Below are positions 1,177 through 17,539 of a DNA stretch of 64,000 nt, one piece after another; position 1 is the first letter of the stretch, and each line of letters begins with the position of its first letter. The DNA lies in the NCBI RefSeq assembly GCF_900090235.1, contig NZ_LT607750.1, positions 5,695,001 through 5,759,000 of the forward strand. Reading direction: 5' to 3'. The position numbers and the translations under genes are program-made. The DNA comes from Micromonospora echinaurantiaca (GTDB lineage: Bacteria; Actinomycetota; Actinomycetes; Mycobacteriales; Micromonosporaceae). The notes under the pieces were generated by a model that made no database searches, was not told the origin of the DNA, and saw nothing but the letters and a program-made list of their open reading frames with translations.

Positions 1177-2142
1177 GTGGCGGACGTGATCGAGGTCGGG
1201 GCGGCGCGTGGTGACGCGCCGCCCCCGGCGGCCGGCACCGCCCGCCGGGGCGCCTCGGCGCGCCGGACCGGTCGGCTGACGCCGTACCTCTTCCTCGCCC
1301 CGTACCTCGTGCTGTTCGGGGTCTTCGGCCTGCTGCCGATCCTGCTCGGCGTCTGGCTCAGCGTGCACCAGTGGGACTTCCAGCTGCCCAACCGGCCCTT
1401 CGTCGGGCTGGACAACTACCAGGAGCTCTTCTCCAGCGACTCGGCCGTCTACGGCGACTGGTGGCAGAGCGTACGGGCCACGGCGATCTTCACCGTGTTC
1501 TCGGTGCCGCTGCTGGTGGTGGTCCCGCTCGGGCTGGCGCTGCTGCTGAACCGCTCGTTCCCCGGCCGGACCTTCTTCCGGGCGGTCTACTTCGCGCCGT
1601 ACGTGCTCGGCGTGGCGGTGATCGGCCTGCTCTGGCGGTTCCTGCTCGACGCCAATCTGGGCCTGGTCAACCGGCTGCTCGGCGCGGTCGGCCTGCCCTC
1701 GGACACCCCGTGGGTGACGGACGTGCCGTGGGCCTGGGTCTCGCTGGTCGGGGTCACCGTCTGGTGGACCTCCGGCTTCAACGCGGTGATCTACCTGGCC
1801 GGCCTGCAGGACATCCCGGCCGAGCTGTACGAGGCGGCGAAGGTGGACGGCGCCAGCGCCTGGGAACGGTTCCGGCACGTCACCCTCCCCGGGCTGCGTC
1901 CGGTGCTGCTCTTCGTGATCACCACGACCGTGCTCGCCTCGGCGAACGTGTTCGGCCAGTCGTTCCTGATCACCCAGGGCGCGCCGGGCACCGAGACCCG
2001 CACGGTGGTGTGGTTCATCGTCGAGGAGGGGCTGCGGGACAACGACGCCGGCCGGGCCGCCGCGATGAGCATCGTGTTCGCCCTGATGCTGGCGGTGGTG
2101 AGCATCGCCAACTTCCGCCTCTTCCGCTACCGGGAAGACTGA
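1177..2142 (+). CDS. Sugar ABC transporter permease (MalF/LacF type)
   Basis: Inner-membrane subunit of a CUT1 carbohydrate importer, 321 residues. A charged, proline-rich N-terminus of about 35 residues is followed by six predicted membrane segments, starting near residue 38 (YLFLAPYLVLFGVFGLLP). The EAA loop that docks the ATPase reads ELYEAAKVDGASAWERFRHVTLP. The GTG start at 1177 lies 6 bp after the stop of the binding-protein gene, and the next permease starts 10 bp after its stop, so the genes form one operon. Confidence 0.94.
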   Translation: MADVIEVGAARGDAPPPAAGTARRGASARRTGRLTPYLFLAPYLVLFGVFGLLPILLGVWLSVHQWDFQLPNRPFVGLDNYQELFSSDSAVYGDWWQSVRATAIFTVFSVPLLVVVPLGLALLLNRSFPGRTFFRAVYFAPYVLGVAVIGLLWRFLLDANLGLVNRLLGAVGLPSDTPWVTDVPWAWVSLVGVTVWWTSGFNAVIYLAGLQDIPAELYEAAKVDGASAWERFRHVTLPGLRPVLLFVITTTVLASANVFGQSFLITQGAPGTETRTVVWFIVEEGLRDNDAGRAAAMSIVFALMLAVVSIANFRLFRYRED

Positions 2143-2152
2143 GGGGACCGCC

Positions 2153-3034
2153 ATGACGACGCCCATCCGCACCGCCGTCGACCGGCGCGCCGGCGCCACC
2201 CGCGCCCCGGGCACCGCGCTGCGACACGGCGCTCTCTACGCCACCCTGGTGGCGCTCGCCCTGGTCTTCCTGACCCCGCTGGTGTGGATGGTCATCACCT
2301 CGCTGAAGACCTACACCGGCGCCCAGCAGATCCCGCCCACCTGGCTGCCCGATCCGGTCTCCGGGTACGGCTACGAGCAGATCGTGAACAACTCGGCGAA
2401 CCCGGTGCTGCGCTGGTTCCTCAACAGCATGCTGGCCGCCACGCTGCACGCGCTGCTGGTGCTGGTGACCGCCTCGATGGCCGCGTACGCCCTGGCCCGG
2501 ATGCGGTTCCGCGGCCGGGGGGTGAGCTTCGCGCTGATCGTCGGGACGCTGTTCATCCCGCCGACCTCGCTGATCATCCCGAACTTCCTGATCGTCGACA
2601 CGCTGGACTGGATCGACACCCTCACCGTGGTGATCGTGCCGGGTGCGGCGAGCGCGTTCGGGGTGTTCTTCCTGCGGCAGTTCTTCCTCTCCCTGCCCCG
2701 GGAACTGGAGGAGGCCGCGGTGCTGGACGGCGCCAACCAGTGGCAGATCTTCGTCCGGGTGGTGCTGCCACTGTCCAAGCCGGCGCTGGCCACCCTGGCG
2801 GTGCTGTCGTTCCTGACCAACTGGAACGACTTCCTCTGGCCGATCTTCGTGCTGTTCAGCCCCGAGAAGCTCACCCTGCCGCCGGGCCTGGGCCTGCTCC
2901 AGGGCGCCTACGTGACCGACTACCCGGTGATCATGGCGGGTGCGGTGCTGGCCAGTGTGCCGGTGCTGATCCTCTTCGTGTTCGCCCAGCGGCACATTAT
3001 CCAGGGTGTGTCCCGCAGCGGCCTGAAGGGATGA
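2153..3034 (+). CDS. Sugar ABC transporter permease (MalG/LacG type)
   Basis: Second membrane subunit of the CUT1 importer, 293 residues with six predicted membrane segments. The EAA loop is ELEEAAVLDGANQWQIFVRVVLP. The C-terminus RHIIQGVSRSGLKG is the usual MalG-type end. The ATG at 2153 is preceded by GAGGGG. Its stop codon overlaps the start of the GH43 gene in an ATGA tetranucleotide, implying translational coupling of transport and hydrolysis. Confidence 0.95.
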   Translation: MTTPIRTAVDRRAGATRAPGTALRHGALYATLVALALVFLTPLVWMVITSLKTYTGAQQIPPTWLPDPVSGYGYEQIVNNSANPVLRWFLNSMLAATLHALLVLVTASMAAYALARMRFRGRGVSFALIVGTLFIPPTSLIIPNFLIVDTLDWIDTLTVVIVPGAASAFGVFFLRQFFLSLPRELEEAAVLDGANQWQIFVRVVLPLSKPALATLAVLSFLTNWNDFLWPIFVLFSPEKLTLPPGLGLLQGAYVTDYPVIMAGAVLASVPVLILFVFAQRHIIQGVSRSGLKG

Positions 3035-4047
3035 CCGCCCGCTGGCGCGGCGCGGCGGCGGCGTTCGCCGCCGCCGCGCTGCTCGCCGCCGGCTGCGGCG
3101 GCGGCGGCGATCCGAGACCCACGACCACCGGGAGCGACCCGAGCATGTTCACCAACCCGGTCGTACGCACCGACGCGCCCGACCCGCAGGCGATCCAGGT
3201 GGGCGACACCTGGTACCTGTTCCATACCAACGCCGGCGGCCGGAACGTCCCGGTGCTCAGCTCGCCCGACCTGGTGGACTGGACTCCGGTCGGCGACGCG
3301 CTGCCCGAGCTGCCCGGCTGGGCGGACGCCGGAAAGACCTGGGCACCGGAGGCGATCCAACTCGCTCCGGACCGGTTCCTGCTCTACTACACGGTGGCCG
3401 GGCGCGAGTTGGGCCGGCAGTGCGTCGGGCGGGCGGTCGCCAGCACGCCGCAGGGGCCGTACCGGGACGACTCGACCGGGCCGCTGATCTGCCAGGCGGA
3501 GCTGGGCGGTTCGATCGACGCGAGCCCGTTCCGGGACACCGACGGCAGCCTGTGGCTGCTGTGGAAGAACGACGGCAACGCCATCGGGGTGGACACCTGG
3601 CTCTGGTCGCAGCGCCTCTCCGACGACGGGCTGAGCCTGGTCGGCGAGCCGACCAGGCTGCTCAAGCAGACCGAGCCGTGGGAGGGCACCCTGATCGAGG
3701 GCCCGTTCCTCCACCGCCAGGACGACCGGCTGTTCCTCTTCTTCGCCGCCAACGCCTACGACCGGGCCGAGTACGCCGAGGGCTACGCGGTCTGCGAGTC
3801 ACCCACCGGCCCCTGCGTGAAGGCCGCGGAGAACCCGATCCTGAAGACCAACGAGGTGGCCTCCGGCCCCGGGCACGCCTCGATGGTGGTCAAGGACGGC
3901 CGCACCTGGCTGCTGTACCACGCCTGGCCGCCCGGCCAGGAGGGCAGCATCGACCCCGGCCGCCAGGTCTGGCTCGACGAGATCACCTGGCCCAACGGCA
4001 AGCCCCAGGTCAACGGCCCCACCGCCGAGCCACAGCAGAAGCCCTGA
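3031..4047 (+). CDS. Glycoside hydrolase family 43 lipoprotein
   Basis: Surface-anchored glycosidase of the five-bladed beta-propeller GH43 family (arabinanase, xylosidase or arabinofuranosidase type), 338 residues. The start is fixed by the ATGA overlap with the permease. A lipoprotein signal ends at LLAAGC with Cys22. Candidate catalytic residues are Asp51 (DAPDPQ, base), Asp163 (GGSIDASPF, pKa modulator) and Glu223 (TLIEGPFL, acid), and His282 in PGHASMV is also conserved in the family. Being the last gene of the transporter operon, it probably trims oligosaccharides for uptake. The exact substrate cannot be read from the sequence. Confidence 0.92.
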   Translation: MTARWRGAAAAFAAAALLAAGCGGGGDPRPTTTGSDPSMFTNPVVRTDAPDPQAIQVGDTWYLFHTNAGGRNVPVLSSPDLVDWTPVGDALPELPGWADAGKTWAPEAIQLAPDRFLLYYTVAGRELGRQCVGRAVASTPQGPYRDDSTGPLICQAELGGSIDASPFRDTDGSLWLLWKNDGNAIGVDTWLWSQRLSDDGLSLVGEPTRLLKQTEPWEGTLIEGPFLHRQDDRLFLFFAANAYDRAEYAEGYAVCESPTGPCVKAAENPILKTNEVASGPGHASMVVKDGRTWLLYHAWPPGQEGSIDPGRQVWLDEITWPNGKPQVNGPTAEPQQKP

Positions 4048-4061
4048 CCAGAGACCCGCAA

Positions 4062-4157
4062 GGCAGGCCGGCCAGCAGGCAGAGCAGCTTGAAGGCAGGC
4101 CGGTCGGAAAGCAGAGCAGCCAGCAGGCAGGCCGGTCAGAAGGCAGAGCAGTCAGCA
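4062..4157. repeat. Tandem repeat, three 32-bp units
   Basis: Three consecutive 32-bp units at 4062-4093, 4094-4125 and 4126-4157, each beginning GGCAGGCCGG and containing GCAGAGCAG. They start 14 bp after the GH43 stop codon and end just before a hairpin. The composition (purine-rich, GCAG-rich) differs from the surrounding coding DNA. No ORF of note uses them. Slippage-type origin is likely; function unknown. Confidence 0.85.
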
Positions 4158-4165
4158 GAGAAACC

Positions 4166-4204
4166 GACAGCGCGGCACCTGACCCGATCGGGCGCCGCGC
4201 TGTC
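4166..4204 (+). terminator. Hairpin after GH43 operon
   Basis: Perfect 11-bp inverted repeat GACAGCGCGGC / GCCGCGCTGTC with a 17-nt loop, following the tandem repeat. No T-run, as is usual in high-GC actinobacteria. It probably terminates or stabilises the sugar-transport operon mRNA. Confidence 0.6.
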
Positions 4205-4270
4205 GCGTACACCAAAGGAAAGCTGACGCCAAGAGAAGCGTGACCACCCCGGGGCGGCCGACCACCGCAG

Positions 4271-4342
4271 GGTTTCCGGGGAGCCCGGCCCGCGGAGGGA
4301 TCAAGCCTGACCGCCCGGAGCGGGCCGGGCTCCCCGGAAACC
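4271..4342. terminator. Bidirectional 23-bp stem hairpin
   Basis: A perfect 23-bp inverted repeat (4271-4293 and 4320-4342, arms starting GGTTTCCGGGG) with a 26-nt loop. It sits between the convergent GH43 operon (+) and APC permease gene (-), 11 bp from the stop codon of the latter, so it can terminate both. Confidence 0.75.
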
Positions 4343-4353
4343 CCCACCAGAGA

Positions 4354-5844
4354 TCACACGGGAGCACGCTCGGGTTCCGGCGAGGACGAAAGACGGGCCA
4401 GACGGTTCCGCCGGTACCCGTACCCGAAGTAGATGACCGCACCGAGCAGCATCCAGGCGCCGAACCGCAGCCAGGTCTCCACCGACAGGTTGAGCATCAG
4501 GTAGAGGCAGGCCAGCGCCGAGACGATCGGCAGCACCGGGGAGAACGGCACGGTGAACGGCCGGTCCAGGTCCGGGCGCTTGCGGCGCAGCACCGGCACC
4601 GCGATCGACACCAGCACGAACGCGCAGAGCGCGCCGATGCTGACCAGGTCGGCCAGCGCGGACAGCGGCAGGAAGCCGGCCAGCAGCGCGACGGCGACGG
4701 TCATGATGGCCGAGATCCGGTACGGGGTGCCCCAGCGCGGGTGCACCTTGGCGATCGACGGCGGGATCAGCCCGTCCCGGCTGATGGCGAAGCCGATCCG
4801 GCCCATCGCCACCAGGTCGACCAGGATGACGCTGGTCAGGCCGGCGACCGCGGCGATGGAGACGAGCACCGCGGCCCAGCCGGCGCCGACCGACTCGAAC
4901 GCCGCGGCGATCGGCGCGCCCCGGTCGATCTCGGTGTACGGCAGCATGCCGACCACCACCAGCGAGACGCCGATGTAGAGCACGGTGGAGACCAGCAGCG
5001 TGCCGAGCAGCCCGAGGGTCAGGTCCCGGCGCGGCCGGCGGGTCTCCTCGCCCAGGTTGGCCACCGCCTCGAAGCCGGTGTACGCGAAGAAGACCACCGC
5101 AGCGGCGCTGAGCACGCCGACGAACCCGAAGATCGACGGCTCCAGCCCGAACAGCGCCTGGGTGACCGGCTGCTTGATGCCGTCCTCGCCACCGCCGGCG
5201 GGCTCGGCCGGCGGGATGAACGGGGTCAGGTTGGCGGCCTTGACGAAGAACGCCCCGGCGAGCACCACGAAGACGCAGATGCCCACCTTGACCAGCACCA
5301 GCAGGTTGGTCACCCGGGCGGACTCCCGGATGCCGACGATGGCCACCACGCCGAGCAGCAGCACGATCGCGATCGCGCCGAGGTTGACCACGCTGCCGTC
5401 CTCGGCGAACCAGGCCGCGGGCAGGTCGAACAGTTCGGCGAGGTAACCGGACCAGCCGCGGGCCACCACCGCCGCGCCGAGCGCGAACTCCAGCAGCAGG
5501 TCCCAGCCGATGATCCAGGCGACGATCTCGCCCATCGTCGCGTACGCGTAGGTGTAGGCGCTGCCGGCGGCCGGCACGCTGGAGGCCAGTTCGGCGTAGC
5601 AGAGCGCGGCGAGCAGCGCGACCACGCCGGCGATGGCGAAGGAGATCACCACGCCGGGGCCGGCGCTGTCCCGGGCCTCGATGCCGGTGAGGGTGAAGAT
5701 CCCGGTGCCGATGACGATGCCGATGCCGAAGCCGGTCAGGTCGACCGCGCCGAGCCGCCGTTTCAGCCCGGGTCCGCCGTCGCCGCCGTCGGCCGCGCTC
5801 TGCGCCTGCACGTCCTTGATCGGTTTGGTACGCAGCACGGACAC
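4354..5844 (-). CDS. APC-superfamily amino acid permease
   Basis: Integral membrane amino acid transporter of 496 residues, cationic-amino-acid-transporter/YfnA-like branch. The N-terminal signature LGAVDLTGFGIGIVIGTGIF is the APC substrate-binding helix 1 motif, and about 12-14 hydrophobic segments follow, including SVPAAGSAYTYAYATMGEIVAW and FFAYTGFEAVANLGEE. The GTG at 5844 is chosen because AGGGGTGA lies just upstream and the conserved region begins 30 residues later; the frame stays open far upstream but without family similarity. Single gene, divergent from the glycosidase gene at 6167. Substrate unknown. Confidence 0.92.
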   Translation of the reverse strand: MSVLRTKPIKDVQAQSAADGGDGGPGLKRRLGAVDLTGFGIGIVIGTGIFTLTGIEARDSAGPGVVISFAIAGVVALLAALCYAELASSVPAAGSAYTYAYATMGEIVAWIIGWDLLLEFALGAAVVARGWSGYLAELFDLPAAWFAEDGSVVNLGAIAIVLLLGVVAIVGIRESARVTNLLVLVKVGICVFVVLAGAFFVKAANLTPFIPPAEPAGGGEDGIKQPVTQALFGLEPSIFGFVGVLSAAAVVFFAYTGFEAVANLGEETRRPRRDLTLGLLGTLLVSTVLYIGVSLVVVGMLPYTEIDRGAPIAAAFESVGAGWAAVLVSIAAVAGLTSVILVDLVAMGRIGFAISRDGLIPPSIAKVHPRWGTPYRISAIMTVAVALLAGFLPLSALADLVSIGALCAFVLVSIAVPVLRRKRPDLDRPFTVPFSPVLPIVSALACLYLMLNLSVETWLRFGAWMLLGAVIYFGYGYRRNRLARLSSSPEPERAPV

Positions 5845-6068
5845 GCGGTCACCCCTCCCACCGTGCCGACCACCACGGTGGCGGCCGGTGACCGCCGTCG
5901 GTACCCAGAGCGGATCCCCGCCAACCGCCATCCATCGGGCCAACCCGGTCAGCACGCCAGGTGTGCGCCCGATCACAGGCAGGAACGTGACGTCCCGGCG
6001 CAGACGGGCGCCTATCCGACGGACGGACCGTTCCGGCGTGGACCCCTTGCGCCCGGCATGCCTGGTGT

Positions 6069-6078
6069 GAAAATTTTC
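6069..6078. promoter_or_regulatory. AT-rich palindrome, candidate operator
   Basis: GAAAATTTTC, a perfect 10-bp palindrome flanked by GGTGT and TACC, lies 89 bp before the glycosidase start in the 322-bp divergent region 5845-6166. An all-A/T core is very conspicuous in DNA of this composition. It looks like a repressor operator for the glycosidase gene; the regulator is unknown. The rest of the region holds no ORF I would support. Confidence 0.45.
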
Positions 6079-6166
6079 TACCAGCGGCAGATAGCCGACG
6101 GCGAATCTTGCCGAGGGCCGCCGCGACCAAACCTGCCACGGGATTCCCGACGAAGGGACACACCGC

Positions 6167-7828
6167 ATGAAGGCAACTCGGCTCGGAGCCGCCGGGCTGA
6201 CCGCGGCACTGCTCGGCGCGCTCGTCGCCGGCACCCCCGCGCACGCCACCGAAGCGGCGGCGACCGACGTCTCCGCCACCACCACCTGCGTCACCGACCC
6301 GGCCACGCCCAAGCGGCAGTTCCGGGCCATGTGGATCGCTTCCGTCACCAACATCGACTGGCCCACCAAGGCGTCCTGGACCGCACCGGACCAGATCGCC
6401 GCGCAGAAGGCCGAATACCTGGGCTGGCTGGACCTGGCCGAGCGGCTGAACCACAACGCCGTCGTGGTCCAGGTCCGCCCGACCGCCGACGCGTTCTGGC
6501 CGTCGCCGCACGAGCCCTGGTCGGAGTACCTGACCGGGGTACGCGGCAAGGACCCGGGCTGGGACCCGCTGGCCTTCGTCGTCGCCGAGGCGCACAAGCG
6601 GAACCTGGAGTTCCACGCCTGGTTCAACCCGTACCGCGTCTCCATGCCGGCCCCGAGCGGCGCCGGCGCGGACATCAACCAGCTCGCCCCGAACCACCCG
6701 GCGCGGGAGCACCCGGAGTGGACCTTCGCGTACCCGCCGGCCGGCGTCGCCGGCAGCCGGCTCTACTACAACCCCGGCATCCCCGAGGTCCGCGAGTTCG
6801 TACAGACCGCGATGATGGACGCGGTCAAGCGGTACGACATCGACGGCGTGCACTTCGACGACTACTTCTACCCGTACCCGAGCGGCACCCACCAGGTGCC
6901 CGACGACGCGACGTTCGCGGCGTACAACCGCGGCTTCACCAACAAGGCGGACTGGCGGCGGGACAACATCAACCTGCTGGTCCAGGAGATGAACGCCAAG
7001 ATCAAGGCCGAGAAGCCGTGGGTGAAGTTCGGCGTCAGCCCGTTCGGCATCTGGCGTAACAAGTCCGCCGACCCGCTCGGCTCGGACACCACCGGCAGCC
7101 AGTCGTACGACATCATCTCCGCCGACACCCGCAAGTGGGTCAAGGAGGAGTGGATCGACTACGTGGTGCCGCAGCTGTACTGGTACATCGGCCAGTACCC
7201 GGCCGCCGACTACGCCCGGCTGGTGCCGTGGTGGGCCGACGTGGTGAAGGGCACCCGGGTGCAGCTCTACATCGGACAGGCCGACTACAAGAGCGGTGAC
7301 CCGGTGTACGGCTCGTTCTGGATGAACCCGCAGGAGCTGTCCAACCACCTGACGTTGAACCGGGAGCACCCCGAGGTGCTGGGCAACGTGCACTTCTCCG
7401 CGGTCCAGGTCCGGGCGAACCGGCTCGGCGCCACCGACATCTACGCCGCCGAGCACTACTCCCGCCCGGCGCTGATCCCGACCATGTCGCACCTGCCGGC
7501 CAAGCCGCTGCTCATGCCGGTGGTCACCGGGTCGGCCCGGGAGGACGCCGGGGTCCGGCTGCGCTGGCGGCAGCCGGCCGACGGGATGGGCCCGCTCGGC
7601 ACCGCCACCTCGTACGCGATCTACCGCTTCGACGGCCTCGACCTGGCCGGCAAGTGCGACGTCGCGGACGCCGCGCACCTGGTGGACACCGTCCGGGCCA
7701 CCCCCGGCGCGGTGCAGTCCTGGGTGGACACCACTGCCGAGCCGGGCAAGCGCTACACGTACTACGTGACCGCGCTCGACCGGCTGGCGAACGAGAGCCC
7801 GCTCAGCCCGCCGCACGTCGTACGCTGA
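6167..7828 (+). CDS. Secreted glycosyl hydrolase-like (GHL10/YngK-type) protein
   Basis: Exported TIM-barrel protein of 553 residues. The signal peptide (KATRLGAAGLTAALLGALVA, cleavage near AHA-TE) is followed by the GHL10 (formerly DUF187) domain, which begins at KRQFRAMWIASVTNIDWPTK and continues with the characteristic VVQVRPTADAFWPS, EFHAWFNPYRV, DGVHFDDYFYPYP and KFGVSPFGIWRN motifs. The acidic FDDYFYP cluster is the probable active-site strand. A C-terminal fibronectin-III-like segment (from about residue 440, RLRWRQPAD through YTYYVTALDRLANESPL) completes it. ATG at 6167 follows AAGGGACACACC. It stands alone between an APC permease and a phospholipase gene. Activity in this family is little studied; action on cell-wall or exopolysaccharide glycans is inferred. 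Confidence 0.9.
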   Translation: MKATRLGAAGLTAALLGALVAGTPAHATEAAATDVSATTTCVTDPATPKRQFRAMWIASVTNIDWPTKASWTAPDQIAAQKAEYLGWLDLAERLNHNAVVVQVRPTADAFWPSPHEPWSEYLTGVRGKDPGWDPLAFVVAEAHKRNLEFHAWFNPYRVSMPAPSGAGADINQLAPNHPAREHPEWTFAYPPAGVAGSRLYYNPGIPEVREFVQTAMMDAVKRYDIDGVHFDDYFYPYPSGTHQVPDDATFAAYNRGFTNKADWRRDNINLLVQEMNAKIKAEKPWVKFGVSPFGIWRNKSADPLGSDTTGSQSYDIISADTRKWVKEEWIDYVVPQLYWYIGQYPAADYARLVPWWADVVKGTRVQLYIGQADYKSGDPVYGSFWMNPQELSNHLTLNREHPEVLGNVHFSAVQVRANRLGATDIYAAEHYSRPALIPTMSHLPAKPLLMPVVTGSAREDAGVRLRWRQPADGMGPLGTATSYAIYRFDGLDLAGKCDVADAAHLVDTVRATPGAVQSWVDTTAEPGKRYTYYVTALDRLANESPLSPPHVVR

Positions 7829-8004: not shown

Positions 8005-8544
8005 ATGCCCCGTCGTCTCGCCACCCTCCTCGCCTCGGGCGCACTCGGTCTGCTGGTCGCGCTCGGCATCGCCAGCCCGGCCGCCGCCGTCACGCCGCAG
8101 CAGAAGCTCTCCGTCCTGTCCAGCTGGACCCAGACCAGCGCCACCAGCTACAACTCCTGGAACGCCGCCCGGCTGAACAAGAGCGCCTGGGCCGAGTACG
8201 CGTTCGACTGGTCCACCGACTACTGCTCGTCCAGCCCGGACAACCCGCTCGGGTTCACCTTCAACCTCTCCTGCTACCGGCACGACTTCGGGTACCGCAA
8301 CTACAAGGCGATGGGCCAGTTCCCGGCCAACAAGTCCCGCCTGGACAGCGCCTTCTACGAGGACCTGAAGCGGGTCTGCGCCAGGTACAACTCGGTCGTC
8401 CGGCCCGCCTGCTACAGCCTGGCCTGGACCTACTACCAGGCGGTCAGCATCTTCGGCTCGGTCGCCGCCGTCCAGCAGGCCGACATCGACCGCGCCGCCC
8501 GAATGAAGGCCGACGCCGAACGCCGCGCCGCCGCCCGCTCCTGA
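8005..8544 (+). CDS. Secreted prokaryotic phospholipase A2
   Basis: Small secreted phospholipase of the Streptomyces violaceoruber type, 179 residues. A signal peptide runs to about residue 28 (LLVALGIASPAAAV). The catalytic helix reads CYRHDFGYRNY with the His93-Asp94 pair. Four cysteines (74, 90, 125, 136) match the two disulfides of the family, and the downstream helix carries DSAFYEDL. A charged alanine/arginine-rich tail follows. ATG at 8005 has CGGAGG upstream. It would hydrolyse the sn-2 acyl ester of phospholipids outside the cell, with Ca2+ as cofactor. Single-gene unit ending in a long hairpin. Confidence 0.93.
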   Translation: MPRRLATLLASGALGLLVALGIASPAAAVTPQQKLSVLSSWTQTSATSYNSWNAARLNKSAWAEYAFDWSTDYCSSSPDNPLGFTFNLSCYRHDFGYRNYKAMGQFPANKSRLDSAFYEDLKRVCARYNSVVRPACYSLAWTYYQAVSIFGSVAAVQQADIDRAARMKADAERRAAARS

Positions 8545-8658: not shown

Positions 8659-10743
8659 TCAGGCGTGTTCGGTGTGCGGGGTGGGGTGGCGATGGGGGTC
8701 GGCCGGTGGGCGGCGGGGGGACGGGGTCGGCGCGCCGGTGGTGAACCGGATCGAGTCCGCCGCCAGGTCGGGGTGCTCCACGCCGAGCGCGAGCGCCGCC
8801 GCCTCCTCCAGGCCCAGTTCGGCCCCCTCGCCGTACGCGTCGTCGAAGGCCGCGTCGCCCAGTTCCCCGCGCAGCTGCGCCTGCCGCTCCGCCCAGTACG
8901 GCCCGTAGATGCCCGGGGTGGCGCGCAGGCTCGCCCGGGTGGCCTGGGCCGCACCGAAGAGCCGGGCCGCGGTCAGCGACTCGCCACCTGCGGCGCACCG
9001 CACCGCCACCGCGTTCAGCGTGTCGCAGGCCCGGCCGTGGAAGCCGTGGCTCATCCGGGACCGGAGCGCCACCAGCAGGTGCTCGTGCGCCGCGACCAGG
9101 TCACCCCGGGCCAGGGCGACCATGCCGAGCAGCATGTCCACCGAGCGCCGGCCCCGCTCCACCGGGCGGGCCGCCTCGACCGGGCGGACGGCACCGAGCA
9201 GCTCCGCCGCCTCGTCCAGCGCGCCCCGCCGCCAGAGCAGCTCGGCCAACCCGAACACGGCGAACAGCGCGTCGCCCAGCACGTCCTGGCCGTGTGCCCA
9301 CTCGATGACCTCCCGGCAAACCCGCTCGGCCTCGACGAACTGTCCCATGTCGACCAGTGGGGCGGCCCGGCCGGCGAGCACCCGGGCCAGCAGGCCGGCG
9401 TCGCCGGCCTGCCGGGCCGCCGCCTCGGCCCGTTGCGAGAAGCGCAGCTCCTCGGCGAACTCGCCGTCCGCGCCGGCATGCAGCGAGTGCATGTGGTATG
9501 CCGCCGCCAGCTCGTCCTCCGGGATCGCCTCGCCGGTCTCCGCGATCCGGCCGTAGAGCCGGAACAGCCAGAGCCGCCCCTCCCGGGCCAGGCCCCGCTC
9601 CCGCCACCACTGGTCCAGCCCACCGGCCAGCCGCAGGCCGGCCCGGGCGCTGCCACCGGTGGTGCACCAGCGCAGCGCGGCGCGCAGCTCTCCGGCGAGC
9701 GGATCGAGGGCGTACAGGGACAGGGTGACCGGCCGGCCGTCCGGGCCCAGGTGGGCCCGTTCCAGCGCGTGCGTCGACCAGGCCACGTGCCGGTCCCGGG
9801 CGGCCTGTTCCTCGCCGGCCTCGGCCAGCCGCCGCGCCGCGTACGCCCGGATCGGGTCGAGCATCCGGTAGGTGCTGCCCGCCGCGTGCGGCTCGGCCAG
9901 CACCATCGACTTGTCCACCAGCACCGAGAGCGGGTCGAGCGGGTCGTCGCCGAGCAGCCACTCCACGGTGGCCAGGTCCACCGGGCCGGCGAAGACCGCC
10001 AGCCAGCGCAGCAGCCGGGCCGCCCGCGGCCCCAGCGTCCGGTACGACCAGGTGACCGTCGCCTGCATGGTGAGGTGCCGCTCGGTGGCCGACCGCTGCA
10101 CCGCCCGGCTGGCCGGGGTGGGCGGCGTGGCGCCGGCCGCCGCCGCGACCAGGTCCACCGTGTCCTGCTGGTTGCCCGTCCAGCCGCGCTCCACCGGAGG
10201 CGGCTCCGGGTCGTCCCGGCCGGCGTCGAGGGTGCCGAGCACGTCGTCGAGGCGCTCGGCGAGCTGCCCCACCGAGAGCACCCGCAGCCGGGCGGCGGCC
10301 AGCTCGATGGCGAGCGGCAGGCCGTCCAACCGCTGCACCACCCGGCGCAGGTCGGCCGATTCGGCCGGGTCTGGCTGCCGGCCGCCACGGGCCGCCGCGG
10401 TCCGGTCCAGCAGCAGCGCCACCGCGTCGCTCTCCGCGCCGTCGGCCGGCGGGTCGACCGAGAGCGGCGGGATCCGCCAGACCACCTCGCCGGGCAGGCC
10501 GAACGACTCCCGGCTGGTCGCCAGCACCCGCACGCCCACCCCGCCGGCGAGCAGCCGGGAGATCACGTCGGCCGAGGCGGCCGGCTGGGCGTCGCAGGTG
10601 TCCAGCACGACCAGCGTCCGGCGGGCGGCGGCGTACTCGACCAGGGTTTCCACCATGGGCCGGCCGGGCTCCGGGCGCAGCCCGAGCACGGCGGCGATCG
10701 CGAACGCCACCAGCCCGTACGCGCCGGCCAGCGGCAACGGCAC
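8659..10743 (-). pseudogene. AfsR/LuxR-like NB-ARC regulator, N-terminal half missing
   Basis: C-terminal 694 residues of an ATPase-type transcriptional regulator. Visible: Walker-B-like TLVVLDTCDA (residues 43-52), ATSRESFGLPGE sensor region, RLDGLPLAIELAAARLRVLS (GLPLA motif), winged-helix stretch WSYRTLGPRAARLLRWLAVFAG, then a long helical TPR-like region. Absent: the GxGGxGKT P-loop, normally about 40-50 residues before the Walker B strand, and any SARP or HTH domain. In this frame a stop codon lies at 10756-10758, just upstream, and the only candidate start is a GTG at 10743 without a ribosome-binding site. The gene is therefore cut at its 5' end exactly where the truncated nuclease gene on the other strand begins. 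Without a P-loop it should not bind ATP normally. It could be a deletion relic or an assembly junction. Confidence 0.8.
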
Positions 10744-10744
10744 C

Positions 10745-13000
10745 AGCAGCGCCCTCTACGACGTGCGCGGCGTGATCACCCAGCTGACCCTGGCCCGGGA
10801 CTCCTCCGGGCGGGACCAGCGCGGCTTCTTCCTGCAGAGCCGGGCGGACGCCACCGACGGCGACCCGACCAGCTCCGACGGCATCTTCGTGTTCATGGGC
10901 TCGTTCACCTCGCTGATCGGCGGCTACGTGCCGACCGTCGGCGACGAGGTGGTGCTCCGCGCCCGGGTGTCGGAGTACTTCACCATGACCCAGCTCTCCA
11001 GCGCCTCGCTGGTCCGCCGGATCGTCTCCGGGGTCGACGTGGACACGGCCGTCGCGGTCACCGACGCGGTGCCCCCGGCCGACCTGGCCGCGGCGGGCCG
11101 GTTCTGGGAGCGGCACGAGGGCGCCCGGCTGCGGGTACGCGCCGGCAGCGGTGCGGTGAGCGGGCGGGACGTCTTCGCCTCCACCGCCGACGCCGAGCTG
11201 TGGGTGGTCGACCGGGACGACCCGCTGCTCGACCGCGCCGACCCGTACGCCCGCCGGGTGTTCCGCGACGCGCACCCGCTGGACAACGACCCCACCCGCG
11301 GCTTCGACGACGGCAACGGGCAGCGGATCATGCTGGGCAGCATGGGCGTGAAGGGCGCCACCGGGGACAGCGGCGCGCTGCTGCCGCCGGCGCACACCTT
11401 CGACACGCTGAGCGCCGACGCGGTCGGTGGCCTCTACTACTCCTTCGAGAAGTACGGCGTGCAGGTCGAGCGGGCCGAGTTCGCCGCGGGCACCGACCCG
11501 TCGACGAACCACCCGCCGCAGCCGGCCAACCGGTCGGAGGAGGTCGCCGTCGCGACCTACAACGTGGAGAACCTGTACGACTTCCGGGACGACCCGTTCG
11601 ACGGCTGCGACTTCGCCGGCAACGCGGGGTGCACCGGGGTCAGCCCGCCGTTCGACTACGTGCCGGGCAGCGAGCAGGAGTACCGCGACCAGCTCGCCGC
11701 GCTCGCCGACCAGATCACCACCGACCTGCACAGCCCGGACCTGATCCTCGTGCAGGAGGCCGAGGACCAGGACATCTGCGCCGTCGCCGACGGGCAGCTG
11801 AGCTGCGGCAGCACCAACAACACCGACGGCGCGCCGGACAGCCTGCAGGACCTGGCGCTGACCATCGCGGCGGCCGGCGGTCCCGCCTACGCCGCCGCGT
11901 ACGACCGGACGGGCGCGGACGGCCGGGGCATCACCGCCGCCTTCCTCTACCGCACGGACCGGGTGTCGCTGGCCGAGGCCACCGCGGCCGACCCGCTGCT
12001 GGGCTCGGCGCCGACCGTGCAGTACCGCGCGCCGGGGCTGGCCAGCAACGCGGACGTGCAGAACCCGAAGGCGCTCAACGCGGTGCTGCCCGCCGACGTG
12101 GACACCTCGACCGGCCGGGACGGCAACAACGTCTTCACCCGCGCCCCGCAGCTCGGCAAGTTCACCGTGGCCGCGGCGCCCGGTTCGGCCGAGCGGTTCA
12201 CCCTCTGGGCGGCCAGCAACCACTACTCGTCGGGCCCGGACAGCCGGGTCGGGCAGCGGCGGGAGCAGGCCGCGTACGGTGCCGCCATCGTCGCCGCGAT
12301 CGAGGCGGCGGACCCGCACGCCCGGGTGGTGTACGGCGGGGACCTGAACGTCTTCCCCCGCCCCGACGACCCGATCGCCACCGCCGACCGGCCGACCCCG
12401 TCGGACCAGCTCGCCCCGCTCTACGACGCGGGTCTGCGCAACCTCTGGGAGGACCTGCTCGCCGACGTGCCGTCGTCGGCCTACTCGTACAGCTTCGAGG
12501 GGCAGGCGCAGACGCTGGACCACCTCTTCGTCAACGAGGCGCTGCACCGGGACCTGGTGCAGATGCGGGCCGCGCACATCAACGCCGACTGGCCGGCGGC
12601 GCACGCCGGTGACGGCACCCGCGGTTCCAGCGACCACGACCCGCAGGTGGCCCGGTTCCGCTCCCGGGCCACGCTGAGCGTCGGCGACGTGACGGTGGCC
12701 GAGGGCGACAAGGGCACCACCCCGCTCACCTTCACCGTCACCGTCTCCCGGCCGCTCTCCCAGCCGGTGCTGCTCTGCGCCGCGACCATCGGCCTCACCG
12801 CCCGGTCCGGCCAGGACTACGACCCGTACGTCGGCTGCCGCACGCTGGCCGCCGGGCAGACCTCGCTGGCCTTCCCGGTGACCGTACGCGGCGACCGGAA
12901 GGCGGAGCCGGACGAGAAGCTCACCCTGGTGGTGGCCGGCGTGCCGGGGCTGCGCCTGGCCGACCCGATCGCCACCGGCACCATCTCGAACGACGACTGA
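10745..13000 (+). pseudogene. Endonuclease/exonuclease/phosphatase-domain secreted protein, 5' end missing
   Basis: About 750 residues recognisable as an extracellular nuclease-like protein that has lost its beginning. The first recognisable segment is LYDVRGVITQ, the OB-fold-like domain that precedes the catalytic domain (…GFFLQSRAD, SDGIFVFMGSF). The EEP catalytic domain starts at VAVATYNVENLYDF, with LILVQEAED, VYGGDLNVFP, LDHLFVN and SSDHDPQVARF supplying the metal-binding and catalytic residues. A C-terminal Calx-beta domain (LSVGDVTVAEGD to ATGTISNDD) follows. No signal peptide, start codon with a Shine-Dalgarno, or leading domain precedes it; the frame upstream of 10745 merely runs antisense through the AfsR-like gene. 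Probably non-functional as it stands unless an upstream in-frame start is used. Confidence 0.82.
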
Positions 13001-13153: not shown

Positions 13154-13693
13154 ATGGGTAGGAACGTGGCACCGCCGGCGCGACCACCGGACGATCTCGT
13201 TCCCGCGCGACCGGAGCCCGAACCGGACCTGCCCTTCGAGCCGTTCTACCGGGCACACGTCGACCGGGTCCACCGCGCGCTGGCGCTGGCCACCAGGGAC
13301 GACGGGCTGGCCCGGGAGGCGGCCGACGAGGCGATGGCGCGGGCGTACGCGCGGTGGGACCAGGTGCGCCGGCTCGACAACCCGGCGGGTTGGGTGTTCC
13401 GGGTCGGGCTGAACTGGGCCACCTCCTGGTGGCGCAAGGTACGCCGGGAGCGGCCGCCGGCCGCCGACGAACGGCACCCGTCCCAGGCCGGACCCGACCC
13501 GGCGGCGCTGGCCGCCCGGTCGGCCCTGGACGGACTGCCCACCGCGCAGCGCACCGTGATCGTCTGTCGGATCCTGCTCGACCTCTCCACCGCCGAGACG
13601 GCCACCGTGCTCGACCTGACCGAGGGCACGGTGAAGAGCAGACTGTCCCGCGGGCTCGCCGGGCTGCGCGCCGCGCTGGCCGAGAAGGAGTGA
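13154..13693 (+). CDS. ECF RNA polymerase sigma factor (SigE-like)
   Basis: Extracytoplasmic-function sigma factor of 179 residues. Region 2 runs from about FEPFYRAHVDRVHRALALAT to RLDNPAGWVFRVGLNWATSWWRK. Region 4 contains LPTAQRTVIVCRILLDLSTAETATVLDLTEGTVKSRLSRGL with the HTH. The ATG at 13154 is chosen because the ECF promoter leaves no room for a longer product. The partner gene starts 2 bp after its stop; that gene's AAGGAG lies inside this gene's 3' end, so the two are coupled. Triggering signal unknown. Confidence 0.93.
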   Translation: MGRNVAPPARPPDDLVPARPEPEPDLPFEPFYRAHVDRVHRALALATRDDGLAREAADEAMARAYARWDQVRRLDNPAGWVFRVGLNWATSWWRKVRRERPPAADERHPSQAGPDPAALAARSALDGLPTAQRTVIVCRILLDLSTAETATVLDLTEGTVKSRLSRGLAGLRAALAEKE

Positions 13694-13695
13694 CC

Positions 13696-14847
13696 ATGCC
13701 CGCCGTACCGGAGGACTTGATCGAGGCGGTGCACCGGGCCGCGCAGACGACCCCGCCCCACGCTGCCGACCTCGCGAACGTGCACCGCCGCCGGCGCGCC
13801 CGACGCCGCCGGCGGGCGGCCGCCACGGCCGGCGGACTCGCGGCACTGGTGGCGCTCACCGGTGGCGCTCTCCCGATGCTGGCCGATGCCCGGTCCGCAC
13901 CCGCGCCGGCGACGCCGTCGCGAACCTCCGCGGCCCCCGCCACCAGCCCACCGGCGACTCCAGTCGTCCCCGCCGCCATACCGGCCCAGCGGCTGCTGAT
14001 CGACATGGCCGGTGCGACCTGGCGCGGCGACAACGGCACCGGGCCGGACGCCGGCCTCCCCGGAGTCGCGGCGGTCGAGGTACTGCCCGACGGGACGGTG
14101 CGACGGCACCGGGTACCCGACGGGTGGGAGCAGACCGTCGCGTCGGCCGACGGACGGCTGATCGGCCTGCAGCTCACGGATCTGCGGCCGGGGGTGCACC
14201 GGCGGGACGGCCCCGACGTCGAAGGGCTGTCGGTCAAGCTCGTGGTGCTGGGACCCGACGACAGCGTGCAGACGGCGCGCGAGATCCGGGTCAGGGGCGC
14301 CGGGGTGGAACTGCTCGGCACCGATGGGACGGTCGCCTACCTGGCCCGGGACGGTGGCCTCGTGGCGCACGACCTGGCCACGGGCCGGGAGGAGATGTTG
14401 CTCCGCTCGTCGACCGCCGGCGTCGACCTGTTGGCAGCCAGCCGGACCGATCTGGGGCCCGACCATCTGGTCGAGCAGCGGACCGACGACGGCTGCCACA
14501 CGGACGTACGCCGACTGACCGACGGGAAGCGGATCGCCCGACTCACGCTCGACGGTCTCTGCGAGAACGGTCTCCGGCTGTCGCCGAACGGCCGTCTGGT
14601 CGCCGTCCCGTACCAGCGCCTCCCCGACCGGGTGGGCGATCGCGAGCAGCGGCTCGCCGTCTTCGACGTCGCCACCGGGACGCTCCGTACCGACCGGCCG
14701 GTCGGGATGTCGCACCGGGCCTCCGCGGCGGGCAGGATCCAGGGAGTCGCCTGGGCCGACGAGACGACGGTACGGGTCGCCTGGACGGCCCGACCGGAGG
14801 GTGCGCGGGTCGATTCGGTGGACGTGGTGACCGTCGCCGTACGGTAA
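13696..14847 (+). CDS. Putative membrane-anchored partner of the ECF sigma factor
   Basis: Protein of 383 residues with an N-terminal cytoplasmic segment (about 45 residues ending in a run of arginines, HRRRRARRRRR), one membrane span (AAATAGGLAALVALTGGALPML), a Pro/Ala/Thr linker and a large extracytoplasmic domain with beta-propeller-like repeats (GLQLTDLRP, VAYLARDGGLVAHDLATGRE, LRLSPNGRLVAVPYQ, LAVFDVATGTL). This layout, and its coupling to the sigma factor gene, suggest a regulator that senses outside the membrane and controls the sigma factor. The short N-terminus has no recognisable zinc anti-sigma HxxxCxxC motif, so direct anti-sigma activity is uncertain. Confidence 0.75.
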   Translation: MPAVPEDLIEAVHRAAQTTPPHAADLANVHRRRRARRRRRAAATAGGLAALVALTGGALPMLADARSAPAPATPSRTSAAPATSPPATPVVPAAIPAQRLLIDMAGATWRGDNGTGPDAGLPGVAAVEVLPDGTVRRHRVPDGWEQTVASADGRLIGLQLTDLRPGVHRRDGPDVEGLSVKLVVLGPDDSVQTAREIRVRGAGVELLGTDGTVAYLARDGGLVAHDLATGREEMLLRSSTAGVDLLAASRTDLGPDHLVEQRTDDGCHTDVRRLTDGKRIARLTLDGLCENGLRLSPNGRLVAVPYQRLPDRVGDREQRLAVFDVATGTLRTDRPVGMSHRASAAGRIQGVAWADETTVRVAWTARPEGARVDSVDVVTVAVR

Positions 14848-15958: not shown

Positions 15959-17539
15959 CTAGCGGAAGCGGAGGGCGGTCGGCCCCTGCACCTTCGAGCC
16001 CCGGCGCTGCTTCGCCGGCATGGCGGCGAGCTTCTCGCGCAGCTCGACGGCGTAGGCGGCGAGCGCCTCCACCAGGTCGGGCACCGAGGCGTGCGGCGGC
16101 TGGACGTCGACCCGCAGGCCGAACTCCGTCGCGGTCTCCGCCGTCTTGGGCCCGATCACGGCAACAACGGTACGCGCGTGCGGCTTCCCGGCGATGCCGA
16201 CCAGGTTCCGGACGGTCGAGGACGAGGTGAAGAGCACCGCGTCGAAGCCACCCGACTTGATCGCGTCGCGGATCTCGGCCGGCGGCGGGGCGGCCCGCAC
16301 GGTCCGGTACGCGGTCACGTCGTCGACCTCCCAGCCGCGCTCGGTGAGCCCGGCGGCGAGCGTCTCGGTGGCGATGTCGGCGCGCGGCAGCAGCACCCGA
16401 CCGACCGGGTCGAGCACCTCGTCGTGCGGCGAGAACTCGGCCAGCAGCCCCTCGGAGGACTGCTCCCCGGACGGGATCAGCTCCGGCTGGATGCCGAACG
16501 CGCGGACCGCGTCGGCGGTCGCGTCGCCGATGCAGGCGATCTTGACGCCGCCGAAGTGCCGGGCGTCCAGGCCGTGCTCGGCGAACTTCTCCCAGACCGC
16601 GCGGACCGCGTTCACCGAGGTGAAGATCACCCAGGCGTACCGGCCGTCGACCAGGCCCTTGACCGCCCGCTCCATCTGGGCCGGGGTGCGCGGCGGCTCC
16701 ACCGCGATGGTCGGCACCTCGCACGGGATGGCCCCGTACGCGCGCAGCCGGGCGCTCATCACGCCGGCCTGCTCCTTGGTCCGCGGGACCAGCACCTTCC
16801 AGCCGTACAGCGGCCGGTTCTCCCACCAGCTGAGCTTGTCCCGCTGGGTGACGCCGGCACCGACGGTGAGCACCACCCGGCCGGTGAAGCCGAGCGCCGC
16901 CGCGACGAAGCTGTCCACGGTCGACGTGGTGGTGTACTGCGTCTCCCCGGTGCCGTCGCCGGTCACCCCGACGGCGGTGGCGCCGTCCACCCCGGCGGCG
17001 AGCAGCCCGTCCCGGATCGCGGCGAGTTCGCCGGCGTCCACGGCCAGCGCCAGCGAGCCCCGGCCGACGGCCGCCGCCAGCGCCTCGAAGTCCAGCTCGC
17101 TGACGTCCTCGACGTCAGCCGCGGTCCGTACGCCCGGCAGCGGCACACCCGCGTAGGTGGCCACCCCCTCGGCCTGGCCGACTCCCGGCACCACCTCGAA
17201 GTGCGCGGCGGTACGCGCCACCGCCTGCACCTCCTTGACCACCGAGTCGTGCCCGAACGGGTCGCCGGCGACCAGGTGCACGGCGTTCAGCCCGGAGCGG
17301 GCCGCCGAGATCAGCACCTTCGCCACGTCACCCGGCGCGCCCTCGGCCGGCGTGAACTGGGCGTCGGTCTTGGCCTGGGCGCGGACGGCGTCGAGCAGCG
17401 ACTCGGGGACTCCCCGGTCGTACACCACCTGATCGGCGTCGACCAGGGCGTCGTGCGCCCGACGGGTCAGCAGGCCCGGGTCGCCGGGACCGGCCCCGAC
17501 GAACGCGATGCGGCCTACGGGCTTACGGGTGCGGGTCAT
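15959..17539 (-). CDS. hemD: Fused uroporphyrinogen-III C-methyltransferase / uroporphyrinogen-III synthase
   Basis: Bifunctional enzyme of 526 residues. Residues 1 to about 245 form a CobA-like SUMT domain (RIAFVGAGPGDPGLLTRRA, DQVVYDRGVP, HLVAGDPFGHDS, VVPGV) and about 260 to 505 a HemD domain (GWKVLVPRTKEQAGVMSARL, AWVIFTSVNAV, KIACIGDATADAV, AVLFTSSSTVRNL). It closes hydroxymethylbilane to uroporphyrinogen III and can methylate it to precorrin-2, linking haem and cobalamin/sirohaem branches. In the SUMT part several conserved substrate-contact motifs are degenerate, so methyltransferase activity is less sure than synthase activity. The start overlaps the hemC stop in ATGA. Confidence 0.95.
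   Translation of the reverse strand: MTRTRKPVGRIAFVGAGPGDPGLLTRRAHDALVDADQVVYDRGVPESLLDAVRAQAKTDAQFTPAEGAPGDVAKVLISAARSGLNAVHLVAGDPFGHDSVVKEVQAVARTAAHFEVVPGVGQAEGVATYAGVPLPGVRTAADVEDVSELDFEALAAAVGRGSLALAVDAGELAAIRDGLLAAGVDGATAVGVTGDGTGETQYTTTSTVDSFVAAALGFTGRVVLTVGAGVTQRDKLSWWENRPLYGWKVLVPRTKEQAGVMSARLRAYGAIPCEVPTIAVEPPRTPAQMERAVKGLVDGRYAWVIFTSVNAVRAVWEKFAEHGLDARHFGGVKIACIGDATADAVRAFGIQPELIPSGEQSSEGLLAEFSPHDEVLDPVGRVLLPRADIATETLAAGLTERGWEVDDVTAYRTVRAAPPPAEIRDAIKSGGFDAVLFTSSSTVRNLVGIAGKPHARTVVAVIGPKTAETATEFGLRVDVQPPHASVPDLVEALAAYAVELREKLAAMPAKQRRGSKVQGPTALRFR

Follow-up and report, generated by a model that had tools for sequence, protein, structure and literature searches.

The DNA analyzed here (the window) is a stretch of 64,000 nucleotides from Micromonospora echinaurantiaca, covering positions 5,695,001–5,759,000 of one 7,203,133-bp (7.2 Mb) contig, with a G+C content of 73.6%. 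M. echinaurantiaca DSM 43904 is listed at 7.20 Mbp and 73.2% G+C under accession LT607750 (PMC5765111). At about 10.7 kb of the window, the 3′ parts of two genes meet head to head, an ATPase gene on the minus strand and a nuclease gene on the plus strand. The best named protein relatives of both are from Micromonospora.

The minus-strand remnant (8659–10716) comprises 685 codons of a cyclase/NB-ARC-type ATPase/TPR gene, corresponding to residues 263–946 of the 946-aa relative P0122. In the list of open reading frames, it appears as a slightly longer frame of 694 aa (8659–10743, minus strand), the additional 5′ part of which (10717–10743) is chimeric and consists of antisense nuclease DNA. The GTG at 10743 is a chance codon within that sequence and the first possible start of the frame; just 5′ of it lies the in-frame stop reported in an earlier note on this DNA, a TAG at plus-strand positions 10756–10758. 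Residues 1–262 of P0122 are absent, and with them the cyclase domain and the Walker A motif (residues 226–233), which precedes the break at residue 263 and bears out the earlier observation that the ATPase begins after its P-loop half. The remnant aligns to its best relatives at 90–92% identity across 95–99% of its length. These are Micromonosporaceae cyclase/NB-ARC-type ATPase/TPR proteins, labeled “adenylate/guanylate cyclase domain-containing protein” or “ATP-binding protein” at source, and the remnant differs from them in having neither the cyclase domain nor the Walker A motif that such a protein should carry. A domain search of the full-length ATPase at the relative locus L026 returned Guanylate_cyc, AAA_16, NB-ARC, TPR_MalT, and AAA_22 (E ≤ 1e-3), whereas the remnant gave TPR_MalT only, under its gathering score. 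AfsR, a SARP regulator, is defined by N-terminal OmpR-type DNA-binding and BTAD domains. The full-length L026 relative shows neither at E ≤ 1e-3, and the label “AfsR-like” first given to this gene does not agree with its domains.

Among the best 120 of 6,678 ATPase relatives, 115 reach at least 189 aa past the break, and five are short (−2 to 58 aa). Two of the short entries (P0170 and P0209) are marked “partial” by their source. The other three (P0191, P0218, and P0238) come from JGI metagenome data, on single contigs of 4.0, 18.3, and 2.3 kb, respectively, and each has V as its first residue, which could reflect either a GTG start codon or the edge of a contig. A search for a second copy of the ATPase in the genome holding the window (G000) found only paralogous matches at 33–44% identity.

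The plus-strand remnant (10715–13000) is the 3′ part of an LTD/ExeM-NucH-type nuclease gene and corresponds to residues 330–1090 of P0001, a 1,090-aa protein named as M. echinaurantiaca that is its closest intact relative (97% identical to the remnant). The N-terminal 329 residues of relatives, including the LTD domain, are missing, in line with the loss of the 5′ end proposed in the earlier note; the frame itself, however, does not start at the junction but is open from 9872 to 13000 (1,042 aa). Its upstream part (9872–10713) is antisense ATPase DNA and provides no real N-terminus. The remnant matches the NCBIfam model for the ExeM/NucH extracellular endonuclease (NF033681, E 7e-33), though at 114 bits against a curated cut-off of 300, and it is broken at residue 330 of 1,090, whereas the intact L026 copy has an LTD domain. 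Given its family name and how the N-terminus of its relatives looks, the intact nuclease is probably secreted, and the lost N-terminal part secretory. Of the best 120 nuclease relatives (from 1,436), 117 continue past the break by 100 aa or more and three (P0091, P0114, and P0115) by 26–60 aa. No second copy of the nuclease remnant was found in G000.

To define the junction, we aligned its flanks by blastn against L026, from Micromonospora sp. C28SCA-DRY-2, the closest relative among the loci fetched (~96% identity). On the left, the window aligns through 10716 with L026 through 2063 (95.7% identity, ungapped), and on the right, the window from 10714 onward aligns with L026 from 6985 onward (96.2%, ungapped). 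A microhomology calculation shows that the two ends overlap by a 3-bp CCC with zero inserted bases, placing the putative deletion junction at 10714–10716, with ATPase (minus-strand) sequence on its left and nuclease (plus-strand) sequence on its right. The claim that both genes lose their 5′ ends at one point was thus correct, though the point lies about 27 bp to the left of the ~10743 first suggested. Relative to L026, 4,924 bp are absent (L026 positions 2064–6987, with placement uncertain by the 3-bp overlap). A scan of 10400–11200 for promoters of the sigma-70 type returned zero matches, in agreement with the earlier statement that no promoter lies between the genes. The alignment to L026 shows no extra bases at the junction, consistent with the reported lack of an insertion sequence remnant, and an insertion-sequence scar was rejected on this ground.

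In L026, the gene order is ATPase (minus strand), SLT_2-domain lytic transglycosylase (L026 3255–4814, plus strand, 519 aa), GNAT acetyltransferase (L026 4885–5904, plus strand, 339 aa), and nuclease (plus strand). The ATPase and nuclease genes are divergent in relatives, as they had been described, but they are not adjacent, since two whole genes lay between them. We compared the best 80 of 155 loci found. The complete four-gene set is present in 55 of the 80, with identical order and orientation in all 55. The ATPase was not found in the fetched stretch at 12 loci, several of these stretches being full length (L005, L028, L047, and L062); the nuclease alone was found at 11, and the transglycosylase was unmatched at two. 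Because 25 of the 80 loci were without all four genes, we regard this order as usual rather than universal. Both junction flanks could be placed at 50 of the 80 loci, where they share a strand and are separated by 4,537–5,135 bp; the remaining 30 were dropped from this spacing because a flank was absent or not aligned to its end. In two genomes (G024 and G028), the flanks are ~11.5–11.7 kb apart, compared with the usual ~5 kb, and the interval may hold extra DNA. Proteins named as M. echinaurantiaca include the intact nuclease P0001 and a transglycosylase (P0242). For each of them the longest contig measures 322,789 bp, so both probably sit on one contig.

The missing segment could not be located elsewhere in G000. 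With the L026 segment as query, there was no real match among the best 40 of 2,197 candidates scored, the best being 68% over 241 bp, while the same search under an identical scoring limit gave E = 0 in all five relatives used as positive controls. The lost transglycosylase protein was found in five of five relatives and not in G000, and a search of G000 with the GNAT protein yielded one paralogue at 31% identity plus two weak matches of lesser length. The SLT_2 family had zero matches in G000, so the lost transglycosylase seems to be the strain's only SLT_2 lytic transglycosylase. By contrast, the family was matched at E ≤ 1e-3 in 35 of 36 sampled relatives in the same genus (34 of them above the curated cut-off). 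The sole sampled relative without one, G001, is an assembly of ~560 contigs, in which the absence may be a gap.

We also searched 101 genomes with a 451-bp query spanning the junction, scoring six candidates per genome; 95 of the 101 had some match, and the matches listed had a strength of at least ~8e-7. Only G000 matched the query end to end. One other genome (G057) matched query positions 1–238, ~20 bp beyond the junction, and none of the others crosses the whole query. By hand count of the matches listed for 60 relatives in the same genus, the left (ATPase) piece was present in 60 and the right (nuclease) piece as well in 46, on different contigs in a few of these; the other 14 had no right piece among the matches listed.

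We then examined the remnants for signs of age. Aligned to L026, neither contains a frameshift or stop. On the window side, the nuclease remnant has 11 nonsynonymous and 18 synonymous changes, and on the L026 side 16 and 18, with eight unassigned on each. The corresponding counts for the ATPase remnant are 7/27 (window) and 6/29 (L026), with 3 and 12 unassigned, respectively. Two control genes gave 2/2 and 6/15 (a hemB-like gene) and 2/11 and 1/11 (the gene at 15962–17539). At 228 nuclease sites that do not vary among the other 116 full-length proteins, the remnant carries one private change, compared with a mean of 0.44 and a maximum of 5 for those proteins; four shorter entries of the best 120 nuclease relatives were left out of this test. 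By these measures, the remnants show no sign of decay, relaxed selection, or nonsynonymous excess. It follows that the deletion is either recent relative to the split from L026 or absent from the living strain, and we consider it probably recent.

Collectively, these data make it very likely, in our judgement, that one deletion of ~4.9 kb, which occurred in this strain's lineage, fused the ATPase gene and the nuclease gene at points in their middle. A contiguous segment is lost, and both flanks remain collinear. One event behind both truncations, and a deletion among the options for it, had been put forward in the earlier note, and both suggestions fit what we found: the flanks meet at one point, relatives usually hold the intact intervening segment, the missing DNA could not be located at another place in the assembly, and the relatives searched do not contain the joined sequence. 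Such a deletion would have removed the whole lytic transglycosylase and GNAT genes together with the 5′ ends of both flanking genes. Presumably, none of the four genes functions any longer: two have been lost outright, and each remnant is missing its start region, with the cyclase domain and P-loop absent from one and the N-terminal (probably secretory) part from the other.

As for mechanism, a double-strand break in the living strain may have been healed by end joining, through Ku-type non-homologous end joining (NHEJ) or another illegitimate route. G000 encodes Ku (PF02735, E 3.3e-55), and the junction has the form expected of end joining, with no long repeat at the ends and an overlap of only 3 bp. 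Repeat-driven recombination was rejected because the gapped similarity at the ends is reached by 27% of random pairs. Weak imperfect inverted repeats are found close to both ends in L026, and we did not judge them meaningful. Random junctions would overlap by at least 3 bp in 9.4% of cases; the CCC is thus near chance and alone does not indicate a mechanism. Of the repair scars studied in Streptomyces ambofaciens, 50% involved microhomologies of 1–6 nt (PMC5869714). The NHEJ and illegitimate-recombination scars described there resemble this junction in the loss of DNA without long homology, the short microhomology, and the Ku-encoding host, but they came from induced breaks, whereas the event here would be a natural 4.9-kb loss recognized by comparison (PMC5869714). 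On balance, end joining is a plausible and likely mechanism.

An alternative explanation is that the strain keeps the 4.9 kb and that the assembler dropped it, closing the gap at the 3-bp match. The remnants, free of decay, look as they would if the genes were intact in the living strain, and the near-universal presence of the lost transglycosylase family in the sampled genus points the same way. Assembler errors, however, usually fall at long repeats, and here the exact overlap of 3 bp and the chance-level gapped similarity offer none; moreover, the genome is one contig, and searches of it did not recover the missing DNA at any other place. Its completeness score is 100%, a value that may have no bearing on these particular genes. 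We therefore consider an assembly omission unlikely. Illumina, PacBio, and Nanopore reads that include M. echinaurantiaca DSM 43904 are described for the BMock12 mock community (PMC6879543).

Two further explanations are far less probable than an omission. Two unrelated gene halves could also meet at the end of an inversion or translocation, with the missing 5′ halves now elsewhere in the genome, and an inversion endpoint had been among the options raised earlier. The flanks nevertheless keep the orientation that they have in relatives, and searches of the rest of the 7.2-Mb contig did not turn up the segment that carries both 5′ halves along with the two lost genes, so we give this explanation almost no weight. 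A join between distant loci likewise contradicts the synteny, in which the flanks lie ~5 kb apart on the same strand. It is also exceedingly doubtful that the two frames are naturally short head-to-head genes with their starts at this point. Both frames are open, and five ATPase entries do have their first residue no more than 58 aa from the break, three of them with a V that may be a GTG start. Two of those five are partial, though, and the other three are from single metagenome contigs, while all but five of the best 120 ATPase relatives and all but three of the best 120 nuclease relatives continue for at least 100 aa past it. The same short pair in a related genome, with expressed products, had been named in the earlier note as evidence that would speak against truncation, and none of the 100 other genomes matches the joined sequence end to end.

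Read as a deletion, the finding is an ordinary one, with nothing unusual for an actinomycete genome. The gene call at 8659–10743 and the plus-strand frame that closes at 13000 should both be annotated as remnants of pseudogenes. Should the deletion be real, this strain offers a natural quadruple mutant of a gene block that many relatives carry, and it would help in asking whether Micromonospora can do without the single SLT_2 transglycosylase. That the loss was selected, through altered cell-wall turnover or extracellular DNA use, with the conserved four-gene block acting as one dispensable functional unit, seems quite improbable.

Finally, we note some features of the neighboring DNA. In the interval from the nuclease remnant to the hemB-like gene, the window carries an ECF sigma factor gene and a following gene (13154–14847). 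The best NCBIfam match of the sigma factor is SigE-fam_strep, under its cut-off. This pair was found in five of the 80 loci (L006, L034, L039, L048, and L055) and not in L026 or L001. At the 67 of 80 loci with both the nuclease and hemB-like genes matched, the distance between match ends ranges from 3 bp to ~5 kb, which suggests that this interval is a variable spot. To the left of the ATPase remnant, a small 179-aa protein is encoded on the plus strand (8005–8544), with a Cys/His stretch that, by eye, we take to resemble bacterial phospholipase A2.
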